Source of the DNA: Bacteroidales bacterium
GTDB lineage: Bacteria > Bacteroidota > Bacteroidia > Bacteroidales > F082
Assembly (NCBI GenBank): GCA_028277395.1
Contig: JANQGJ010000071.1
Span: 1-64,000 of the forward strand
Length of the DNA stretch: 64,000 nucleotides
Reading direction: 5' to 3'
The first letter of the stretch is position 1; each line of letters begins with the position of its first letter. Made by a program: the position numbers and the translations under genes. Of this stretch, positions 50,642-61,885 are shown piece after piece. Below the pieces are notes generated by a model. It was given only the letters and a program-made list of their open reading frames with translations, was not told the DNA's origin and did no database searches.

Positions 50642-50931
50642 TTCAAGAATTATGTTTTGGCTGGTAAATGTATTCAATCAAAATGCTTTGCTGTAAAGCA
50701 GTAACTAAATTTATCAACAAATTGTATGTTGATTAAACGCCAAAATCAGATAATTAATATATAAGTTTTGTGATTAGTATTTTTTATGGTTTTTGATTTG
50801 ATACATTTTTTATGCAATTCATTACATGGAAATTGAGATTCATTACAATTCACTTTTTTTATAGTCTTAAGTAATATTGTTTTGCATACTGAAAAGTCTG
50901 TAATTGATAAAGTTTAACAAAAAATAAAAAA

Positions 50932-52569
50932 ATGAAACCGACATTAAAAATATTACTGGTAATTTTTCTGGCATCTGCAACTGTTACATCATTTGCCCAA
51001 TACACTGTTCAGAATTATACCATTTCAGGTAAAAAACAATACAAATATTCCGATAGTTTCACCGATTATGAGGTTCAGGTAAAAGGTGATATTAAAGTGA
51101 ATGATGATGACACTGAAATAGAAAGTGTTTCACCTGGCGGATACCTTAAGATCAGTAAGAAAACCTTTGGAAACAAAAGATCGGTGATAGTTGAAGGAAA
51201 CGCAAATGGTGAGCTTATTTTTGAATACTATGAAGGCAGAAAAGAATTACCGTTTGATCCTGAGGGTAAAAAATGGCTTGCCGACATACTATTAGATGTT
51301 GTAAGGATGACAGGAATTGATGCTGAAGGCCGAACCAAGAGAATTTATAAAAATGGTGGAATTGTTGCTTTTACAGATGAAGTATCGGAAATAAACTCAA
51401 ATTCTGTATCAGGCATCTATTTCAGGGCACTTCTTGATAATTTCAAATTGAACGAAAAAGAAACTAAAATAGTTATTGCTTCAATTTCAAGAGATATTTC
51501 CTCTAATTCCGAGAGAGGGCAGTTATATAAAGATTTCAGCAAAAAATTCATGGTAAGTAATGATGTTGCAATTGAATATTTTAACGGAATTTCGAGATTA
51601 TCATCAAATTCTGAAAGGAGTTCAGTACTTCGCAGGATCACTGACAATATTGACTTCAAAAGTCCTGATGTAACTGAAGCTTATTTTGCTTGTCTTGACA
51701 GATTGTCAAGTAATACAGAAAGAGGTAGTGTGATGAGACATGTTGATCGCACACAAAAACTAACTGATGATGCTTATATCCGCCTTCTGGAAAGTGTTAG
51801 CAGATTGAGCTCCAATACCGAAATGGGATCAGTAATGAGATCGTTAAACGGTTTGGATTTTAAAAATAAAGGTATATCCAAAGCATACTTTGATGCAATA
51901 AACCGGATGTCGAGCAATACGGAAGCCGGACACACTCTGAGATATACTCTTAAAAATTATACTCTTAATGATGACAATTATATTTTGTTGCTTGAATCAG
52001 TTCAACGACTGTCATCAAATACCGAAATAGGAAGTGTACTTCGTAATATTCATTCGCTTAATTTGTCGAATGATAATATAAGCCAGGAATATTTTACTAC
52101 AATAGGTGTAATGACAAGTAATACTGAGGCCGGGTCAATAATGCGATTTGCCATTAAAAATTACAATTTCGACTCAAAGAACTGGGAACGACTACTAAGG
52201 GAAGCAGGCAGATTATCTTCCAATACTGAAATGGGATATGTACTTCGAACCGCTATTAAGTACATGCCATTTGGTGAAGATGAAGTTACTTCTTTGATGG
52301 ATGCTGTAGGTCATATGACCAGTAATACAGAGATAAGCAATGTACTTATGAGTATTATGAAATCTGGAAAACTGAATAAACATGCTTGTTTTGAGGTGTT
52401 AAATACATCTTCCATTTTGTCATCAAATACAGAAAGAGGCAAAGTAATGAGAGCTGTCGCAGCAACTGAATATATTAATGACAGCAGAATGAAAGAAGCT
52501 TATAAAAGATATGCTAAGACGCTTTCATCAAACACAGAATATCGTAGTGTAATGGAAGCAATCAACTAG
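50932..52569 (+). CDS. Secreted SSNTE-repeat protein (34-residue helical repeats)
   Basis: The 545-residue protein has a signal peptide (about residues 1-23, ending S-F-A-Q), a beta-rich N-terminal domain (about 28-150) and then eleven clear and one weak copy of a repeat with core L/M-S-S-N-T-E-x-G-S-V-L/M-R. Cores start at residues 189, 223, 258, 292, 326, 360, 394, 428, 462, 496 and 531 (a weak one at 154), a period of 34-35. The N-terminal part and the repeats remind me of the sensor end of some M56/BlaR1-like proteins, where related repeats read I-x-S-D-x-E; this is from memory. No peptidase domain is present. It precedes a LytS/LytTR circuit and likely is its envelope sensor or output. 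Confidence 0.85.
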   Translation: MKPTLKILLVIFLASATVTSFAQYTVQNYTISGKKQYKYSDSFTDYEVQVKGDIKVNDDDTEIESVSPGGYLKISKKTFGNKRSVIVEGNANGELIFEYYEGRKELPFDPEGKKWLADILLDVVRMTGIDAEGRTKRIYKNGGIVAFTDEVSEINSNSVSGIYFRALLDNFKLNEKETKIVIASISRDISSNSERGQLYKDFSKKFMVSNDVAIEYFNGISRLSSNSERSSVLRRITDNIDFKSPDVTEAYFACLDRLSSNTERGSVMRHVDRTQKLTDDAYIRLLESVSRLSSNTEMGSVMRSLNGLDFKNKGISKAYFDAINRMSSNTEAGHTLRYTLKNYTLNDDNYILLLESVQRLSSNTEIGSVLRNIHSLNLSNDNISQEYFTTIGVMTSNTEAGSIMRFAIKNYNFDSKNWERLLREAGRLSSNTEMGYVLRTAIKYMPFGEDEVTSLMDAVGHMTSNTEISNVLMSIMKSGKLNKHACFEVLNTSSILSSNTERGKVMRAVAATEYINDSRMKEAYKRYAKTLSSNTEYRSVMEAIN

Positions 52570-52591
52570 AACTTTGACCATGAGTAAAACG

Positions 52592-52625
52592 CCGTGGACA
52601 TTCCTGCAATTTTAAATGTCCACGG
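52592..52625 (+). terminator. Perfect 11-bp hairpin between the repeat protein and kinase genes
   Basis: CCGTGGACATT (52592-52602) and its exact complement (52615-52625) flank a 12-nt loop, 22 bp after the repeat-protein stop. The following bases are T-rich but broken (TATTACTTTTAA), so termination would be partial: it may lower kinase expression relative to the repeat protein. The hairpin covers the ATG at 52616, arguing against that start. Confidence 0.65.
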
Positions 52626-52666
52626 TATTACTTTTAATCGTAGTTTTAATACCCGATTTAATTAGC

Positions 52667-53749
52667 ATGTCAAGGATCTGGAGAAATATCATCATAAGCA
52701 GTTTACTTGCAGTATCTGTTTACCTGTTTATATTTTATAGTGAAACTACCATACTTCCCGAACTCAGGAATCAGTGGAAAGGTATCCTTGTGGCAACTGT
52801 CCTTGTTAATCTTGTGGCTTATACATTATATTACCTGAACAGGAAATATAATAGTTTGTTTCCCTGGAATAAAAATATCTCGATGAGGATCTTTATTGAG
52901 GTACTATCAGGTATCGTAGTTACTGCAATAGCAGCAGTGATTTTTATTTTTACCTATGTAAAATATTCTATGCCTGTGCAGGAAATAAGCCTTATTGATT
53001 TTGTTTATGATGGTACCGTGAAATTTGGGATTCTTGCCATTGTAATACTCTACGGTTATTCGATGATAAATTTCTCAATTTACTCATATAATGAATACAG
53101 TGTCGGACAAATCAAAGCGCTTGAATCGGAAAGAATACAGCTGGATTTGAGTTTTGAAGCTCTTAAAAGCCAGTTGAACCCGCACTTCCTCTTTAACGCA
53201 TTGAATACCATATCATCATTGATCTATGTTAATGTAAGCCAGGCAGAGAATTATATCAGGCTTCTTGCAGGTACTTATGACTACATACTTGAAACAAATG
53301 ATAATAAGCTGGTTTCCTTAAAAGATGAACTTGATATGGTTAAGGCGTATTTTTATATGCACAAAATAAGGTACGACGATAGTGTGGAACTACAGTTTAG
53401 TAAGAGCATTGAGGAACAACAGGGATTTATTCCGCCTTTTACTTTGCAGATACTTGTTGAAAATGCCCTGAAACATTCAGCAATTACCGAGGAAGAACCT
53501 CTTGTGATAGAAATATTCGGTAATAGTGAACAACAGATAGTTGTAAAGAATAATATCGTTAAAAAGCAGGTTGAGCAATCTACTATGGACAATCTGCTTA
53601 ATCGCGAAAAAGAATCGGAATCGTATAAAATCGGTCTTGCAAATATAAGTAGTCGGTATATGTTTTTGATCAATAAGGATATTGAAATAACCTCAGGAAA
53701 GTACTTTACAGTGAAATTACCCATAATTACGAACAAAGATGAAGGATAG
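52667..53749 (+). CDS. LytS-type sensor histidine kinase
   Basis: The protein (360 residues from the ATG at 52667) has four transmembrane helices in its N-terminal half and a His_kinase (LytS/YehU) domain. The phosphoacceptor is the His in Q-L-N-P-H-F-L-F-N (codon 53183-53185), followed by an N box E-N-A-L-K-H and a G-box remnant K-I-G-L-A-N-I. A frame-open ATG at 52616 lies inside a perfect hairpin, so 52667 is preferred. No periplasmic domain of size is seen, so sensing is by the membrane part or via the repeat protein. It overlaps the next gene by 11 bp. Confidence 0.9.
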   Translation: MSRIWRNIIISSLLAVSVYLFIFYSETTILPELRNQWKGILVATVLVNLVAYTLYYLNRKYNSLFPWNKNISMRIFIEVLSGIVVTAIAAVIFIFTYVKYSMPVQEISLIDFVYDGTVKFGILAIVILYGYSMINFSIYSYNEYSVGQIKALESERIQLDLSFEALKSQLNPHFLFNALNTISSLIYVNVSQAENYIRLLAGTYDYILETNDNKLVSLKDELDMVKAYFYMHKIRYDDSVELQFSKSIEEQQGFIPPFTLQILVENALKHSAITEEEPLVIEIFGNSEQQIVVKNNIVKKQVEQSTMDNLLNREKESESYKIGLANISSRYMFLINKDIEITSGKYFTVKLPIITNKDEG

Positions 53750-54779
53750 CTGGTACTACAATAATTATGCATTCAGACTTGCATCACCTTTATTGCTTGG
53801 GGTTGTTGTTTACATGCTGGTACTTTTGTTTTTTGATTCGGTAGATCAGCTTGCTTCGAATTTCTTTAGCCGTGAAGTGCTTTTTGTTATTTCACTTACA
53901 CTTGTTTTTTTGGAAATTAACAGAATAGTGATCATTCTGATGGATCATATATTTCCACTTGCCAGGAATATTCAGTTACGAATAGCATTACAGGTTTTTA
54001 CTTCTGCAGTTATCACCATTTCCGTAATCAGCCTGTTGTTGTACTTATATTTTGTGCATTTTGAAGGATTTAGTGTGATAACAACAGAGCTTATAACCTT
54101 TAACCTGATATACCTTATGGCTACGATTTTTTACAACCTGTATTACTTTAGCCTGGTATTTTTGCACAAACGAAATGATGCCAAGATCAGGGAAGAGTCA
54201 ACAAAAAAGGAAAGCCTGGAACTTGAAATGGAAACCTTTAAAAACCAGGTGAATCCTGATTTTTTGTTTCAATCGCTGGAGATAATTATCTCAGAGTTAT
54301 ATAAAAAGAAGAAGCATGCTGATGAACTGGTCAATAACCTGGCAATGGTTTACAGGTTTACCCTGGAAAATAAAGATTCTGATTTAATACCTGTAAATGA
54401 AGAACTTGATGCCCTGGTACCTGTGCTGAAACTTTTTAAGGCCAAATACCTCGACGGACTTACGTTTAAAATAAAAAGTGACAAGAAAAACCAGAAATAT
54501 CTTGTCCCCGGTACATTACAGATACTATTTGAGAATGCTGTATTTCAGAATATTATTACTAACTCTGTCAGACTGAACTTTGATATTGAAACCAGTAACG
54601 ATCATCTTATAATTGAACATTCGCTAAATAAAAGACTTAAACGTAATGAGCTAATAGATAGTAGGTTGAGCAGGTTGAAGAAAGCATATAAATATTTTGT
54701 GGATGAAGGTATAAAGTGTGATGAATCTGATGGTATATCAAAAATAATGGTGCCATTACTTGAGTTTGAAGAGGAATGA
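53739..54779 (+). CDS. LytS-like pseudokinase (His replaced by Asp)
   Basis: The 346-residue protein has the same layout as the preceding kinase: four membrane helices, a short coiled coil and a degenerate His_kinase domain. The phosphoacceptor motif reads Q-V-N-P-D-F-L-F-Q, with Asp174 (codon 54258-54260) in place of His. The N box is only partly kept (F-E-N-A-V-F-Q-N), and no G-box glycines remain in the C-terminal part. It should neither autophosphorylate nor bind ATP normally. The 11-bp overlap with the active kinase suggests a stoichiometric regulator, perhaps a heterodimer partner. This is inference. Confidence 0.88.
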   Translation: MKDSWYYNNYAFRLASPLLLGVVVYMLVLLFFDSVDQLASNFFSREVLFVISLTLVFLEINRIVIILMDHIFPLARNIQLRIALQVFTSAVITISVISLLLYLYFVHFEGFSVITTELITFNLIYLMATIFYNLYYFSLVFLHKRNDAKIREESTKKESLELEMETFKNQVNPDFLFQSLEIIISELYKKKKHADELVNNLAMVYRFTLENKDSDLIPVNEELDALVPVLKLFKAKYLDGLTFKIKSDKKNQKYLVPGTLQILFENAVFQNIITNSVRLNFDIETSNDHLIIEHSLNKRLKRNELIDSRLSRLKKAYKYFVDEGIKCDESDGISKIMVPLLEFEEE

Positions 54780-54807
54780 TATGGGGAGTAATTTAATATA
54801 GTCTATT

Positions 54808-55596
54808 ATGAAAGTTGTAATTATTGAAGATGAAAATCCGGCCATTGTAAAACTGGAGAATTTACTAAAGGATTACGACAGGAATATTGAAGTAATTGCA
54901 AAACTAACCACCGTAAATGATTCTGTTGAGTGGATTGGATCCAATTCGGGACGTGTTGACCTGTATTTTATGGATATCAGGCTCAATGATGGGTTGAGTT
55001 TTGAAATTTTCAGCCGTGTTGATATCAAGAAACCGGTAATATTTATAACTGCCTACAACGAATATGCAGTTGAAGCATTCAAGGTAAACAGTATTGATTA
55101 CTTACTTAAACCACTTTCTTACAAGGAATTACAGAAAAGCCTGGAAAAGATAAAATCGCTGCGTGAAAATCTTCCTGCACAGGAAAGTATGCCTGTACAG
55201 CAACAAGGGCTTCCATACAATGAACTAAGCAGGATGCTTATGCAAATGCAGAAAAAGTATAAGGCAAGGTTTTTGACCAAGGTTGGCGATCATATAAAAT
55301 CAATAAAAACTGAAAATATACTACTATTCTATGCTGAAGGACGTACCGTTTATATTATTACTGTTAAAAACAACAGGTATATAATTGACTATACCCTCGA
55401 GGACCTTATGAAACATCTGGATCCTGAGATGTTTTTCCGTGCAAACCGAACATTTATCGTAAACATAAATGCCATTGAAGATGTTCTGGTTTATTCGAAC
55501 AGCCGTTTGCTGATAAAGCTGAATTTTGAGTTCGATAAAGAAATAATCGTGAGTCGCGATAAGGTAGCTTTGCTTAAATCGTGGTTTGAGGGTTGA
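54808..55596 (+). CDS. LytTR-family response regulator
   Basis: The 262-residue protein has a CheY-like receiver (residues 1-120) with the acidic pocket E-D-E near residues 7-9, phosphoacceptor Asp56 in Y-F-M-D-I-R and the conserved Lys in Y-L-L-K-P. A LytTR DNA-binding domain follows (about 155-262: R-F-L-T-K-V-G-D-H-I-K-S-I, F-F-R-A-N-R-T-F-I-V-N-I). LytTR regulators bind direct repeats upstream of their targets. It is the last gene of the circuit, 28 bp after the pseudokinase gene. Confidence 0.95.
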   Translation: MKVVIIEDENPAIVKLENLLKDYDRNIEVIAKLTTVNDSVEWIGSNSGRVDLYFMDIRLNDGLSFEIFSRVDIKKPVIFITAYNEYAVEAFKVNSIDYLLKPLSYKELQKSLEKIKSLRENLPAQESMPVQQQGLPYNELSRMLMQMQKKYKARFLTKVGDHIKSIKTENILLFYAEGRTVYIITVKNNRYIIDYTLEDLMKHLDPEMFFRANRTFIVNINAIEDVLVYSNSRLLIKLNFEFDKEIIVSRDKVALLKSWFEG

Positions 55597-56299: not shown

Positions 56300-57034
56300 A
56301 TGATCTTGAAATTAATAGATAATATTGCAGGTAAACTAAGGTCCTCTTTTTTCGATTTGTTACCTATTATTGCTGTTGTTTCGTTCTTTCAAATCGTTGT
56401 ATTACAACAACCTTTTCCTAATCTGTTTGAAGTGTTGGTCGGTTTAGTTTTTGTGGTATTGGGACTTATGCTGTTCGTAGAAGGCCTTGAAATAGGTTTA
56501 TTTCCAATAGGGGAGAACCTGTCCTACACTTTAGCCAAAAAGGGAAGTTTGTTTTGGCTTTTGTTATTTTCATTTCTACTAGGGTTTTCGACAACCATAG
56601 CAGAACCTGCATTAATTGCCGTTTCTAATGAAGCTGCAGAAATTGCTGTTGAATCGAATCTGATAAGCTCTGAAATAGAAACAAATTATGCTTTTGGTTT
56701 ACGATTATCTGTAGCTATTTCAGTTGGGTTGGCAATACTTATCGGAATTTGGCGAATTATAAAGGGCTGGCCTGTTTATTACCTAATTATTGGTGGATAT
56801 GTAATTGTAATATTATTGACATTGATTGCACCGGAAGAGATCATTGGGATTGCTTATGATGCCGGTGGTGTTACAACCTCTACAATAACAGTACCTTTGG
56901 TTACTGCATTGGGAGTTGGTCTGGCTACGGTTATTGAAGGGAGAAGTCCTCTTACAGACGGTTTTGGATTAATTGCGTTTGCATCGCTTTTTCCAATGAT
57001 GTTTGTAATGGTTTATGGAATGTTAATCTTTTAG
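56300..57034 (+). CDS. DUF1538 membrane protein, first copy
   Basis: The 244-residue protein is almost entirely hydrophobic with about seven membrane helices. It carries the DUF1538 signatures G-F-S-T-T-I-A-E-P-A-L (after the third helix) and A-Y-D-A-G-G-V-T-T-S-T-I-T-V-P near residue 190, plus D-G-F-G-L-I-A-F-A-S-L-F-P-M. The paired re-entrant-like motifs suggest a transporter fold. It precedes a second, related copy after 9 bp, so the functional unit is probably a heterodimer. Confidence 0.9.
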   Translation: MILKLIDNIAGKLRSSFFDLLPIIAVVSFFQIVVLQQPFPNLFEVLVGLVFVVLGLMLFVEGLEIGLFPIGENLSYTLAKKGSLFWLLLFSFLLGFSTTIAEPALIAVSNEAAEIAVESNLISSEIETNYAFGLRLSVAISVGLAILIGIWRIIKGWPVYYLIIGGYVIVILLTLIAPEEIIGIAYDAGGVTTSTITVPLVTALGVGLATVIEGRSPLTDGFGLIAFASLFPMMFVMVYGMLIF

Positions 57035-57043
57035 TTTATAGGC

Positions 57044-57811
57044 ATGTTAGAAGAACTTGGAGTTACTTTTTTTAATACTATAAGGGATGTTACACCAATT
57101 GTAGTATTAATTGCCGTATTCCAGGTTTTTATTATAAAGAAATCTATTCCTAACCTGAAAAAAGTTGTTCTCGGTGTTGTACTGGTTATTTTTGGATTAA
57201 CTTTTTTCCTGATAGGACTGGAAAAAGCATTATTTCCACTAGGAGAGTTTATGGCCATACAACTTTCTAAACCAGAGTTTGTTGCTAATAATTATTCCGG
57301 TTCATTAACAGATTGGCAGGCTTATTATTGGGTATATATTTTTGCTGCATTAATAGGATTTTCAACAACCATCGCTGAGCCGGCACTTTACGCAGTAGCA
57401 GTAAAGGCCAATGAGGTTTCAGGAGGTACAATTAGTACATTTTATCTTCGCTTTGTAGTAGCAATAGGTGTTGCCTTTGCACTTGTGGTAGGCACATATC
57501 GTATAGTTGTGGGTGATTCGTTGGTTAATTATATCATGATAGGCTATATAATAGTGGTTATTCAAACCATATTTGTTAAAAAAGACATTGTGGCTTTGGC
57601 TTATGATTCAGGAGGTGTTACCACTTCAACTGTAACAGTACCTATTGTGGCAGCTTTAGGATTGGGACTGGCATCAGTTGTCCCTGGCCGGAATCCTGCA
57701 TTAGACGGGTTTGGATTAATTGCTTTCGCCAGTGTTTTTCCTATGATAACAGTATTGGGATATGCCCAAATAAATAATTTAATCAGATATTTGAATAAAT
57801 TTAAAAAATAG
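57044..57811 (+). CDS. DUF1538 membrane protein, second copy
   Basis: The 255-residue protein shares the same motifs as its upstream neighbour: G-F-S-T-T-I-A-E-P-A-L, A-Y-D-S-G-G-V-T-T-S-T-V-T-V-P and D-G-F-G-L-I-A-F-A-S-V-F-P-M. The two copies probably arose by duplication and act together in the inner membrane. In other bacteria DUF1538 genes also occur as pairs or fused. It is followed 4 bp later by the PII-like gene. Confidence 0.9.
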   Translation: MLEELGVTFFNTIRDVTPIVVLIAVFQVFIIKKSIPNLKKVVLGVVLVIFGLTFFLIGLEKALFPLGEFMAIQLSKPEFVANNYSGSLTDWQAYYWVYIFAALIGFSTTIAEPALYAVAVKANEVSGGTISTFYLRFVVAIGVAFALVVGTYRIVVGDSLVNYIMIGYIIVVIQTIFVKKDIVALAYDSGGVTTSTVTVPIVAALGLGLASVVPGRNPALDGFGLIAFASVFPMITVLGYAQINNLIRYLNKFKK

Positions 57812-57815
57812 AATC

Positions 57816-58160
57816 ATGAGATTTAATCTATTAGTAGGGTTTGTAAACCCAAACATTACTGAAAAAGTTGTTAAAACAGCTAAAAAGGCAGGGGCAACAG
57901 GTGATGTAATAATCCAGGGTAAAGGTACCGGAATAGAACAATCAAATTTTTTGGGAATATCTATTCAGGATAAAACAGATATTGTTCTTTTCGTGGTAGA
58001 GGAACACCATACCAACAAAATAATAGAATCTGTTTCAAAGAAATTAAATATTGAAGAACCTGGCAACGGAATACTGATTTCGTTGAACATCGACAGGGTT
58101 GCAGGCTTATCCAAGCAAATCAAGAAAATCAGAGAGAACCTTAAAACAGAACAATTATAA
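57816..58160 (+). CDS. PII-like regulatory protein
   Basis: The 114-residue protein has the PII ferredoxin-like pattern: beta-1 F-N-L-L-V-G-F-V, helix with K-V-V-K-T-A-K-K-A-G-A-T-G, T-loop region G-K-G-T-G-I-E and a C-terminal G-N-G-I-L-I-S-L-N-I-D-R-V-A-G-L that matches the nucleotide-binding G-x-G-x-I-x-V segment. The canonical T-loop Tyr and R-T-G-E end are missing, so it is a PII-like, not a GlnB/GlnK, protein. It likely gates the DUF1538 pair in response to a nucleotide. Confidence 0.82.
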   Translation: MRFNLLVGFVNPNITEKVVKTAKKAGATGDVIIQGKGTGIEQSNFLGISIQDKTDIVLFVVEEHHTNKIIESVSKKLNIEEPGNGILISLNIDRVAGLSKQIKKIRENLKTEQL

Positions 58161-58171
58161 ATATTTAAGGC

Positions 58172-58564
58172 ATGGAAACTTTTAAAAAAGCAAAAGAAAT
58201 AGCTTCTGATAAGCTATTCTATATTGATGGTCTGGCAAGTGTTAGGGATGCTGTTCAATTAATGAAAGAAAAAAATGTTCAGGCATTAATAATACAGAAA
58301 AGAAATAGTGCTGATACTAATGGAATAATTACGATCAATGACATAGTTAAAGGCGTAATTATTCCAAACAAGACTCCCGATGAAGTTAGTGTATATGAAA
58401 TCATGACAAAACCTGTTTTTTCGATTTCAGCTCACTTAAATGTTAAGTATGTGCCAAGATTAATGCATAATTATAACATCAAAATTGCACCCGTTGAAGA
58501 AAATGGAGAATATATCGGGATTATAGATCATTCTCAATTTCTGTTTACGGAGCTGCTAAGCTGA
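58172..58564 (+). CDS. Two-CBS-domain protein
   Basis: The 130-residue protein is a single Bateman module: CBS1 (about residues 5-65; A-S-V-R-D-A-V-Q-L-M-K-E-K-N-V-Q-A) and CBS2 (about 72-130; M-T-K-P-V-F-S-I ... G-E-Y-I-G-I-I-D). CBS pairs bind adenosine nucleotides. It is 11 bp after the PII-like gene, so the unit DUF1538-DUF1538-PII-CBS has two nucleotide sensors. Confidence 0.9.
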   Translation: METFKKAKEIASDKLFYIDGLASVRDAVQLMKEKNVQALIIQKRNSADTNGIITINDIVKGVIIPNKTPDEVSVYEIMTKPVFSISAHLNVKYVPRLMHNYNIKIAPVEENGEYIGIIDHSQFLFTELLS

Positions 58565-59164: not shown

Positions 59165-61885
59165 TTACTTCACCAGAAACATCTTCCCGGATTGCAGATA
59201 ACTGCCCATTCTTATTTTATAAAAATATGTTCCTTTGGATAAGTTTTTACCATTGAATAATACTGAATATTTACCTTTTTGCAGCTCTTCATTTACTAAT
59301 GTAGCCATATTCCTTCCATGAACATCACAAATGTTTAATAACACATGACATTTGTTCTTAACATCAAATGAAATTGTTGTTTCATCACTGAAAGGGTTGG
59401 GATAATTTTGATACAAATTAAAAGCAACAGGATTTGTTGACAGATGTTCCTGTATTGACGATGTATCCGGAAGGGTAGTTATGTGGTGTTCTTTTACAAT
59501 AACACTGGAATCTCCGTTTCCAAATGAAGTAAGAGTGACAGTAAATGAGCCGTCTATTTCATATATATATGATGGGTTTTGATCTTTGCTTGTACCTCCG
59601 TCTCCGAAATCCCAGCGCCAGGAATCTGAAGAACAGGATTCATTTGTAAAGTTTACAGTAAACGGTACAACTCCGTATGTTGAGTCTGCAATGAACTCTG
59701 CTACAGGCGCCAGTAAATTATTCTCATACCATTTCATTTTATGGTCTGTTATAGATGCTGAAACAACATCAATATCACAATCATTATCAAAATCGGCCGC
59801 ATGTACACATGAAGCACCGTTGGCGTATGTTGAAATTATAGTCTGATCACCAAAGTTACCATCACCATCATTCTCATACCAGGCAATTTTATTATCTGCA
59901 TACGAAGCTGACAATACATCCATGTCACCATCATTATCAAGATCTGTAGCACAAACACTTCTTGCATCAATAGCATCACGGGAAATGATAATTTCATCGC
60001 TGAACTCTCCTTGATCAATATTTTCAAACCATGCTATTTTGTTATCATCAGCTGAGGCAGATATTAGGTCAATATCGCCATCATTATCAAAGTCAGCCGA
60101 TTGAATATAAATAGGTCCTTCTAAATCAGTAGAAATCGAGTGTCTTGTAAAATCGTTTGAAGTATCAATATTTTCGCACCATTTGATACTACCGCCTATC
60201 TGCCCAATAATTATATCTATATCTCCATCCAGATCAATGTCTGCAGTGCAGGCTGAATATGATGACCATTCCATGATATTTTGATGATCTCCGAACATTC
60301 CATTTCCGAGATTTTCGTACCAGATAGTTCCTCTGTAGCCTGTTGTTGAAATTACATCCATATCACCATCATCATCCAAATCAGCAGTCAGCACATTTGT
60401 TGGCCAGTTGAGTTCACTAGAGATTATATTCTGCGAGCCAAATTGTCCGTTGTTCTGATTCTCATACCATGCTATTTTATGATCTTCACGGGATGCAGAC
60501 AGCACATCCATATCTCCGTCATTATCCAGATCAGCAGCATGAACTGATCGTGCTTCTACAATACTTATGCTTATCATCTTTTGGTAAGAGAAGCCTCCAT
60601 TTTGGTCGTTCTCGTACCATGCAATTTTGTCATCAGCAGCAGATGCGGTAAGTACATCAGTAAATCCATCATTGTTAAGGTCTGCTGTGTAAACCATATC
60701 TGCATACATGGTATTAATTGTAATATCCTTAGGTAAACTGAAATCTACTTCGTTTTTATACCATACAAGGTTATAAGCCTGGGTAGCACCAGTAATTATG
60801 TCCGTGTTTCCATCATTGTCCACATCAGCAGCAACAGCAATAATAGGATTTACAGATGTTAAACTAATTACCATCTGTTCACCGAAAACACCATTACCTT
60901 TGTTTTCATACCAGGCAGTTTTATCATCAAATACTGATGTAGAGATTAAATCCAGGTCACCATCATCATCCAGGTCAGAAGTGTGAATAGATGTTGCTCC
61001 CTCCAGTTCAGTAGAAATAACGATACCGGCACTAAAATCGCCATCCCCATCATTTCTGAACCACTCAATTGTATACGTGTATGGAGTATAAATAACTGTG
61101 ATTGCGATGATATCCAAATCACCATCATTATCCAGGTCATCTGCTAAAAGATGACGGGTTTCAGGAGCTCCGTAGTCTATTACATGTGTCGTACCAAAAC
61201 TGCCATCTCCATTATTTACAATCCATTGAATATTATAGTCGTTTTCTGATGATGTAATAATATCTAAGTCCCCATCATCATCCATATCTGTTACTACAAA
61301 TGTCCGTGGTCTTTTAATGCTTGTAGTAATAATTTGTTTTTCACTAAACAATCCATTTCCAAGATTTCTGAACCATACTAAACTTGTGTCTCTGTAGTCG
61401 GAAATTATATCATTATAACCGTCACTATCAATATCAGCGATTTCTACAATATCTGTATACCTTGTACTGGTATCAAGTACAATTGCGTCTCCAAAATTCC
61501 CAACACCATCATTCTCGTACCAGGCCAGCAAATTGGTTTCACCATGAATTGAAAGTATATCATTATCTCCATCTCCATCAATGTCACCTACTTTTGCAGC
61601 ACCGTCATAAAATCCATAGGTCGCCGGTGTTTCTACTATAATATTCCGATAGCCAAACTCACCCTTACCATCATTCTTATACCACATTAAATGTGATGAA
61701 AGGATGACAATATCATCTATATTGTCACCATCAACATCAGCGACGTTTATTGAATATGTACTAAATGGTAATTGTTTCTCAATTCTATGAGGATTGCCAA
61801 ATTGTACCGACTGTGCAATTAGAATTTCAATACTGCAGAGTAGTACAAGCAGTAATAAACCAATAATTTTACTATACATATTCAT
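59165..61885 (-). CDS. FG-GAP/VCBS-repeat protein with PKD and T9SS type A domains
   Basis: The 906-residue secreted protein has a signal peptide (about residues 1-24, ending I-L-I-A-Q), then about fifteen integrin-like repeats with D-x-D-x-D-G-D-x-D calcium loops and a W-Y-E-N tail, forming one or two beta-propellers (about 30-745). A PKD domain (about 750-825, W-D-F-G-D-G-G) and a type A T9SS sorting domain (about 830-906, N-Y-P-N-P-F ... G-T-Y-F-Y-K-I) follow. Such proteins bind surfaces or polysaccharides. No enzyme domain is present. The start could be Met1 or Met3. Confidence 0.93.
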   Translation of the reverse strand: MNMYSKIIGLLLLVLLCSIEILIAQSVQFGNPHRIEKQLPFSTYSINVADVDGDNIDDIVILSSHLMWYKNDGKGEFGYRNIIVETPATYGFYDGAAKVGDIDGDGDNDILSIHGETNLLAWYENDGVGNFGDAIVLDTSTRYTDIVEIADIDSDGYNDIISDYRDTSLVWFRNLGNGLFSEKQIITTSIKRPRTFVVTDMDDDGDLDIITSSENDYNIQWIVNNGDGSFGTTHVIDYGAPETRHLLADDLDNDGDLDIIAITVIYTPYTYTIEWFRNDGDGDFSAGIVISTELEGATSIHTSDLDDDGDLDLISTSVFDDKTAWYENKGNGVFGEQMVISLTSVNPIIAVAADVDNDGNTDIITGATQAYNLVWYKNEVDFSLPKDITINTMYADMVYTADLNNDGFTDVLTASAADDKIAWYENDQNGGFSYQKMISISIVEARSVHAADLDNDGDMDVLSASREDHKIAWYENQNNGQFGSQNIISSELNWPTNVLTADLDDDGDMDVISTTGYRGTIWYENLGNGMFGDHQNIMEWSSYSACTADIDLDGDIDIIIGQIGGSIKWCENIDTSNDFTRHSISTDLEGPIYIQSADFDNDGDIDLISASADDNKIAWFENIDQGEFSDEIIISRDAIDARSVCATDLDNDGDMDVLSASYADNKIAWYENDGDGNFGDQTIISTYANGASCVHAADFDNDCDIDVVSASITDHKMKWYENNLLAPVAEFIADSTYGVVPFTVNFTNESCSSDSWRWDFGDGGTSKDQNPSYIYEIDGSFTVTLTSFGNGDSSVIVKEHHITTLPDTSSIQEHLSTNPVAFNLYQNYPNPFSDETTISFDVKNKCHVLLNICDVHGRNMATLVNEELQKGKYSVLFNGKNLSKGTYFYKIRMGSYLQSGKMFLVK

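Follow-up and report, generated by a model that had tools for sequence, protein, structure and literature searches.

A conserved LytS/LytTR cassette of Bacteroidota with a secreted repeat protein, a LytS pseudokinase and a predicted direct-repeat operator

Analysis of a 64,000-nucleotide stretch of DNA from a Bacteroidales bacterium, in the following called the window, revealed a four-gene cassette shared by 33 genomes that represent many families of Bacteroidota. It encodes a secreted repeat protein (P0001), a LytS-type histidine kinase (P0002), a LytS-type pseudokinase (P0003) and a LytTR response regulator (P0004). With a probability of roughly 0.55, we regard the cassette as an envelope-sensing LytS/LytTR system with a self-induced, CpxP-like periplasmic accessory protein. 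Regulation of the repeat gene is well supported by the conserved sequences ahead of it, and feedback of the repeat protein on the kinases is suggested by analogy.

Gene arrangement and distribution of the cassette

A preliminary description of this DNA had placed the repeat gene, the two kinase genes and the regulator gene on the same strand, and all four were found there. Its interval, 50932–55596, takes in the four genes and leaves out the operator at 50796–50847. The features of the locus are as follows.

50796–50847, plus strand: predicted LytTR operator of direct repeats with a 21-bp period, conserved in 27/28 loci; half-sites are a weak ATTTGATACA at 50796–50805, CAATTCATTACA from 50815 and a second ATTCATTACA ending at 50847
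50854–50884, plus strand: T-tract and TTTTG element, predicted promoter of the repeat gene; the TTTG starts 33 bp past the operator
50932–52569, plus strand: repeat protein P0001, 545 amino acids, with signal peptide, beta domain and alpha-solenoid
52589–52638, plus strand: strong hairpin with 14-bp arms (52589–52602 and 52615–52628) and a short T-rich tail, z = -5.6
52616–53749 (open reading frame; likely start 52667), plus strand: LytS-type histidine kinase P0002 with intact H, N and G boxes
53739–54779, plus strand: LytS-type pseudokinase P0003, with Asp in place of His in the motif NPDFLF and degenerate N and G boxes
54808–55596, plus strand: LytTR response regulator P0004, with the phospho-acceptor Asp56 and with Thr81 and Lys101 retained

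For P0002, translation from 52667 rather than from 52616 is more likely, because several orthologues begin at the former position and the ATG at 52616 lies inside the hairpin.

Searches with P0001 identified homologues in 7 of 99 relatives (the window's own genome aside) and on 4 reference contigs; a phylum-wide sample of 395 genomes contributed 9 others, and a class-wide sample contributed 3 more. The preliminary description had linked the repeat gene to LytS/LytTR genes, and this linkage holds: 19 of the 23 homologues outside the window sit in the cassette arrangement, a few of them clipped by contig ends, and 4 lie outside it, so that the gene is not found mainly away from kinases. A search starting from the pseudokinase gave matches that split cleanly into one group with at least 244 bits and another with at most 172 bits. 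Wherever upstream sequence was available in the upper group, the kinase and repeat genes preceded the pseudokinase gene (13/13), and the three loci inspected from the lower group were ordinary LytS/LytTR loci. Gene order was constant in all loci long enough for judgement. One locus lacks the regulator: at L090:4925–9169, repeat gene, kinase and pseudokinase are present with no adjacent LytTR gene, and a ketoacyl-synthase-like gene follows downstream on the opposite strand. Full-text searches of the open-licence literature returned neither an account of the cassette nor any report of a conserved LytS pseudokinase, which is weak evidence of absence.

Beyond the genus of the window the genes flanking the cassette differ, and its distribution is so patchy that loss or transfer must be common. 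An unrelated secreted repeat protein that lies beside a LytS/LytTR operon by chance is a reading to which we give next to no credence: nothing was found in its favour apart from the single locus of the preliminary description, and 33 genomes show a constant gene order, with changed surroundings outside the genus, and a shared operator. In the window, two DUF1538 membrane proteins, a PII-like protein and a CBS-domain protein are encoded consecutively at 56300–58564 (plus strand), which looks like a transporter cluster under PII/CBS control. Positions 59165–61885 encode a secreted protein of 906 amino acids, for which reading of the sequence indicated FG-GAP/VCBS-like repeats, a PKD-like domain and a C-terminal sorting tail.

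Operator, promoter and predicted targets

Upstream of the repeat gene we identified direct repeats with a consensus of approximately CARTTCAYTACA and a period of 21 bp. They occur in 27 of the 28 loci having sufficient upstream sequence, though the upstream regions are otherwise dissimilar; the exception, L088, carries a weak site only. The sites are the best match per upstream region, and the weight of this result rests on shuffle, leave-one-out and shift controls. Every alternative repeat spacing tried scored lower on average than 21 bp. With a leave-one-out matrix, the site ahead of the repeat gene was the top match of the whole locus in 27/27 cases. The 27 cassette genomes contained 27 operator matches (2 of them exact) versus 3 for the reversed pattern, and 27 cassette-free genomes contained 6, all with 3 mismatches.

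TTTG is part of the -7 element in Bacteroidota promoters. In 19 of 25 loci it was found exactly 33 or 54 bp downstream of the operator, compared with 0 or 1 locus at each of 24 control shifts. Taking TTTG as the -7 element would put the operator near -40 and upward, a usual location for an activator. An extended motif, TAnnTTTG, was discarded as the full promoter element, being seen in few loci only, and TTTG alone was constant. Known LytTR sites consist of two repeats of 9–11 nt that are 11–13 nt apart (PMC4847170), and the predicted operator matches this layout by sequence. Scanning the upstream regions with an AgrA-like LytTR consensus gave nothing consistent. The conservation of the operator, its top rank within the locus and its fixed distance to TTTG make it very probable that the regulator activates the repeat gene; the sequence ties the operator to the cassette, with this regulator as its putative binder.

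In the window's own genome the single perfect operator is that of the repeat gene. Operator-like matches with 1–2 mismatches lie mostly within predicted coding sequence, and the repeat gene is therefore the sole target counted there. In most genomes, too, the repeat-gene site is the sole high-scoring operator, and the gene of the repeat protein is probably the main one that the regulator activates. A few genomes have the operator, with the same TTTG spacing, at other genes: before those of a SIMPL protein and an HlyD-like protein (G993), an Rce1-like intramembrane protease (G851), an FtsX-like permease (G1119) and a TonB-plug protein (G411). The names HlyD-like and FtsX-like come from sequence reading, and a Pfam scan of the FtsX-like protein gave no match. 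These additional predicted targets all have envelope functions and vary between genomes, each occurring in one genome.

In G993, the gene of the SIMPL (DUF541) protein adjoins the cassette (L092:9215–10221) and has a second strong operator at its 5' side. Weaker operators of this genome lie 5' of an outer-membrane-like gene and at other places, so a larger envelope regulon is possible there. In G868, an operator-like site precedes the gene of another LytS-type kinase by 57 bp (L186:1501–2597), with a TTTG spacing that is off by one base.

The hairpin between the repeat gene and the kinases could be an attenuator or terminator that separates them. Among 31 such gaps, 16 have z < -2; the role of the hairpin is kept as a possibility because roughly one locus in two has a strong one and the sequences are unlike. 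It bears on the view that the repeat protein is an output only, namely a periplasmic effector, chaperone or envelope binder that a dedicated LytS/LytTR system makes on demand, with the membrane parts of the kinases sensing the signal. Such an output would be served by the operator and promoter element ahead of its gene and, in roughly half the loci, by a hairpin 3' of it that would permit expression above that of the kinases. BtsS, a pyruvate sensor, provides a model. Its membrane domain is the place of ligand binding, and a single transporter gene is activated (PMC10653868; see also PMC5552118). A pure output agrees with the data nearly as well as feedback does. Strict co-occurrence with both kinases, however, exceeds the need of a target gene, and there are BlaR1-type proteins whose sensor end carries repeats related to those of P0001. 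We consider the output-only role possible, if somewhat doubtful.

The repeat protein and its relatives

P0001 contains a 34-residue unit eleven times, each time with a core of the SSNTE type. The count and spacing given in the preliminary description were borne out, and its core positions proved one residue too low: the cores start at residues 190, 224, 259, 293, 327, 361, 395, 429, 463, 497 and 532, at distances of 34, 35, 34, 34, 34, 34, 34, 34, 34 and 35. Seven cores read SSNTE, two SSNSE and two TSNTE, and a degenerate twelfth unit (NSNSV) precedes the eleven at about residue 155. Chance was ruled out as an origin of the array, as 20,000 shuffled sequences contained a mean of 0.01 cores and a maximum of 2.

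At the DNA level the repeats share a mean identity of 43% (highest 55%), yet the core is near-invariant and its invariant Ser is encoded by TCN and AGY codons alike. In close relatives, each repeat of P0001 matches the one at the same position. Recent duplication could be excluded by the 43% identity and the position-wise matching; these two features, together with the use of both Ser codon families, mark the units as old. The earlier suggestion that selection keeps the array is thereby upheld, with low DNA identity accompanying a near-invariant core. Cores are uniform inside one array and otherwise lineage-specific (SSNTE, DSDHH, DSDYY, SSSTE, PSSGD).

An AlphaFold2 model of P0001, built with five aligned sequences, had a pLDDT of 89. 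It predicts beta strands at about residues 25–106, following a signal peptide called from hydrophobicity, and paired helices forming an alpha-solenoid at residues 108–544. In 11/11 units the second helix of the model begins at the core Asn, two residues into the core, so that Ser-x-x-Glu of the core looks like a helix-capping box (N-cap). Capping would give a structural reason for the conservation of the core and is compatible with ligand binding. The best structural matches were karyopherins, CAND1, VPS35 and the PP2A scaffold, with Z scores up to 15 despite an rmsd of about 17 Å over about 400 residues. Such matches are common for helical repeat proteins, and the function of P0001 is therefore not deducible from them. 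P0001 is predicted to share the stacked two-helix repeats of HEAT/ARM/TPR-like alpha-solenoids, but no sequence relation to them was detected.

The top PDB sequence match had an E value of 0.012, a scan against NCBIfam gave no match, and Pfam and NCBIfam scans for CpxP/Spy homology gave nothing above cut-off. Pfam matches to RICTOR_M and Tricorn_C1 were taken as chance because they fell below the families' own cut-offs and spanned just 24–25 residues. Two short lipoproteins consist of the beta domain only and have no adjoining signalling gene (L121:5271–5645 and L122:5371–5733).

Divergent members of the repeat family occur in two further kinds of signalling loci, with two examples each. At L041 and L042 they adjoin the genes of BlaI and a BlaR1-type M56 protein, and the C-terminus of the M56 protein itself, past its last membrane segment, is made of the same kind of repeats. 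The preliminary description had allowed for orthologues with another role, such as a BlaR1-type peptidase output; BlaR1-type relatives do exist, and the repeats are still part of a transmembrane signalling system in these loci. The window cassette differs from BlaR1/BlaI (MecR1/MecI), as neither an M56 peptidase nor BlaI was found in it by gene list and Pfam, and its output is a LytTR regulator. A plasmid search using a BlaR1-linked relative gave no match. At L044 and L045, a relative is encoded a few genes 3' of an ECF sigma gene and the gene of a small membrane protein, plausibly an anti-sigma factor as judged by gene order and a membrane segment, with no Pfam match. Neither a kinase nor a LytTR regulator is encoded in these ECF sigma loci.

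These contexts bear on the sensor role. The preliminary description had called the repeat protein a sensor or a target; the target half is sustained by the conserved operator and promoter element, and the sensor half is hinted at by the periplasmic C-terminal repeats of BlaR1-type proteins. As a primary sensor, the solenoid together with an envelope polymer or peptide would turn the kinase pair on, and the operator would provide positive autoregulation. The repeat gene stands first in the cassette, the BlaR1-type fusions agree with such a role, and cores uniform within an array and variable between lineages would be expected if all units touch a repeating ligand. A helix N-cap (S-x-x-E) would look alike, however, and structure alone could conserve the core; we hold this role to be unlikely.

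More broadly, solenoid receptors composed of a beta domain and 34-residue repeats might be an exchangeable periplasmic input for three transmembrane signalling machines of unrelated kind, LytS/pseudo-LytS/LytTR, BlaR1/BlaI and ECF sigma/anti-sigma. The cores, aligned on one edge, would read a repeating envelope polymer, and the dead kinase would transmit between the solenoid and the live kinase. This is a tentative proposal, which we put forward with rather low confidence.

Kinase pair and proposed mechanism

P0002 carries membrane segments and a His_kinase domain (PF06580), and kinases of this first type keep the H-box His, the N-box Asn and the G-box Gly in 31/31 cases each. The second kinase had been described as a pseudokinase, and it is one throughout the family: none of 33 sequences retains the former phospho-acceptor His, which has given way to Asp, Glu, Ser or other residues, or the G-box Gly, and 6/33 retain the N-box Asn. 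P0003 is still recognised as a His_kinase domain by Pfam (47 bits); its structure model is of low confidence. Since the Pro of what was the NPH motif persists in 32/33 sequences and the Glu in place of the LNT Asn is invariant (33/33), the pseudokinase is evidently selected in its own right, beyond mere decay. Both P0002 and P0003 have several hydrophobic segments, and a Pfam scan that served as a test for 5TMR-LYT reported His_kinase alone; sequence reading revealed no obvious periplasmic domain in either. The regulator consists of a receiver and a LytTR DNA-binding domain, with the phospho-acceptor Asp conserved in 31/31 cases.

In the envelope-sensing system that we favour, the live kinase would pair with the pseudokinase in the membrane and, as its intact catalytic residues suggest, phosphorylate the LytTR regulator. 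The phosphorylated regulator would bind the direct repeats 5' of the Bacteroidota-type promoter and switch on the repeat gene; binding and activation are proposed because site, spacing and promoter position are strongly conserved. The exported product is predicted to fold as an alpha-solenoid, with the SSNTE core of each unit capping one of its helices. Most probably it would inform the kinase pair of an envelope ligand or of damage and would damp the pair as CpxP does CpxA, a role suggested by kinases without an obvious periplasmic domain and by related repeats that tail BlaR1-type proteins.

The E. coli system CpxA/CpxR with CpxP resembles the cassette in that a periplasmic helical protein is encoded with a two-component system. 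Envelope genes are among the targets, predicted ones in the cassette, and induction of the accessory gene by the regulator is very probable here as well. CpxA, on the other hand, is not LytS-type and has its own periplasmic sensor, no pseudokinase belongs to the Cpx system, and CpxP is a small helical protein with no solenoid and beta domain, unlike P0001. The damping of CpxA by CpxP is a precedent for the proposed feedback (PMC4985592). BtsS/BtsR and YpdA/YpdB of E. coli share with the cassette a LytS-type kinase, a LytTR regulator and few targets, and the YpdB operator, direct repeats of GGCATTTCAT, has the direct-repeat layout in common with it. What the cassette adds as standing parts is a second LytS protein, which is dead as a kinase, and a secreted repeat protein; the main predicted target is the cassette's own repeat gene and no transporter.

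The predicted direct-repeat operator, the loss of His and G-box Gly in every pseudokinase of the family, the prediction of a beta domain with an alpha-solenoid and the relatives in BlaR1/BlaI and ECF sigma loci are new here, and the P0001 family lies outside the coverage of Pfam and NCBIfam. With its conserved dead kinase, the cassette is a natural test case for the role of pseudokinases in two-component systems, and a common repeat family ties together three signalling classes that are usually handled separately. If our reading is true, Bacteroidota possess an envelope-sensing system in which receptor, feedback and output would be testable gene by gene, and the defined operator would be a ready reporter.
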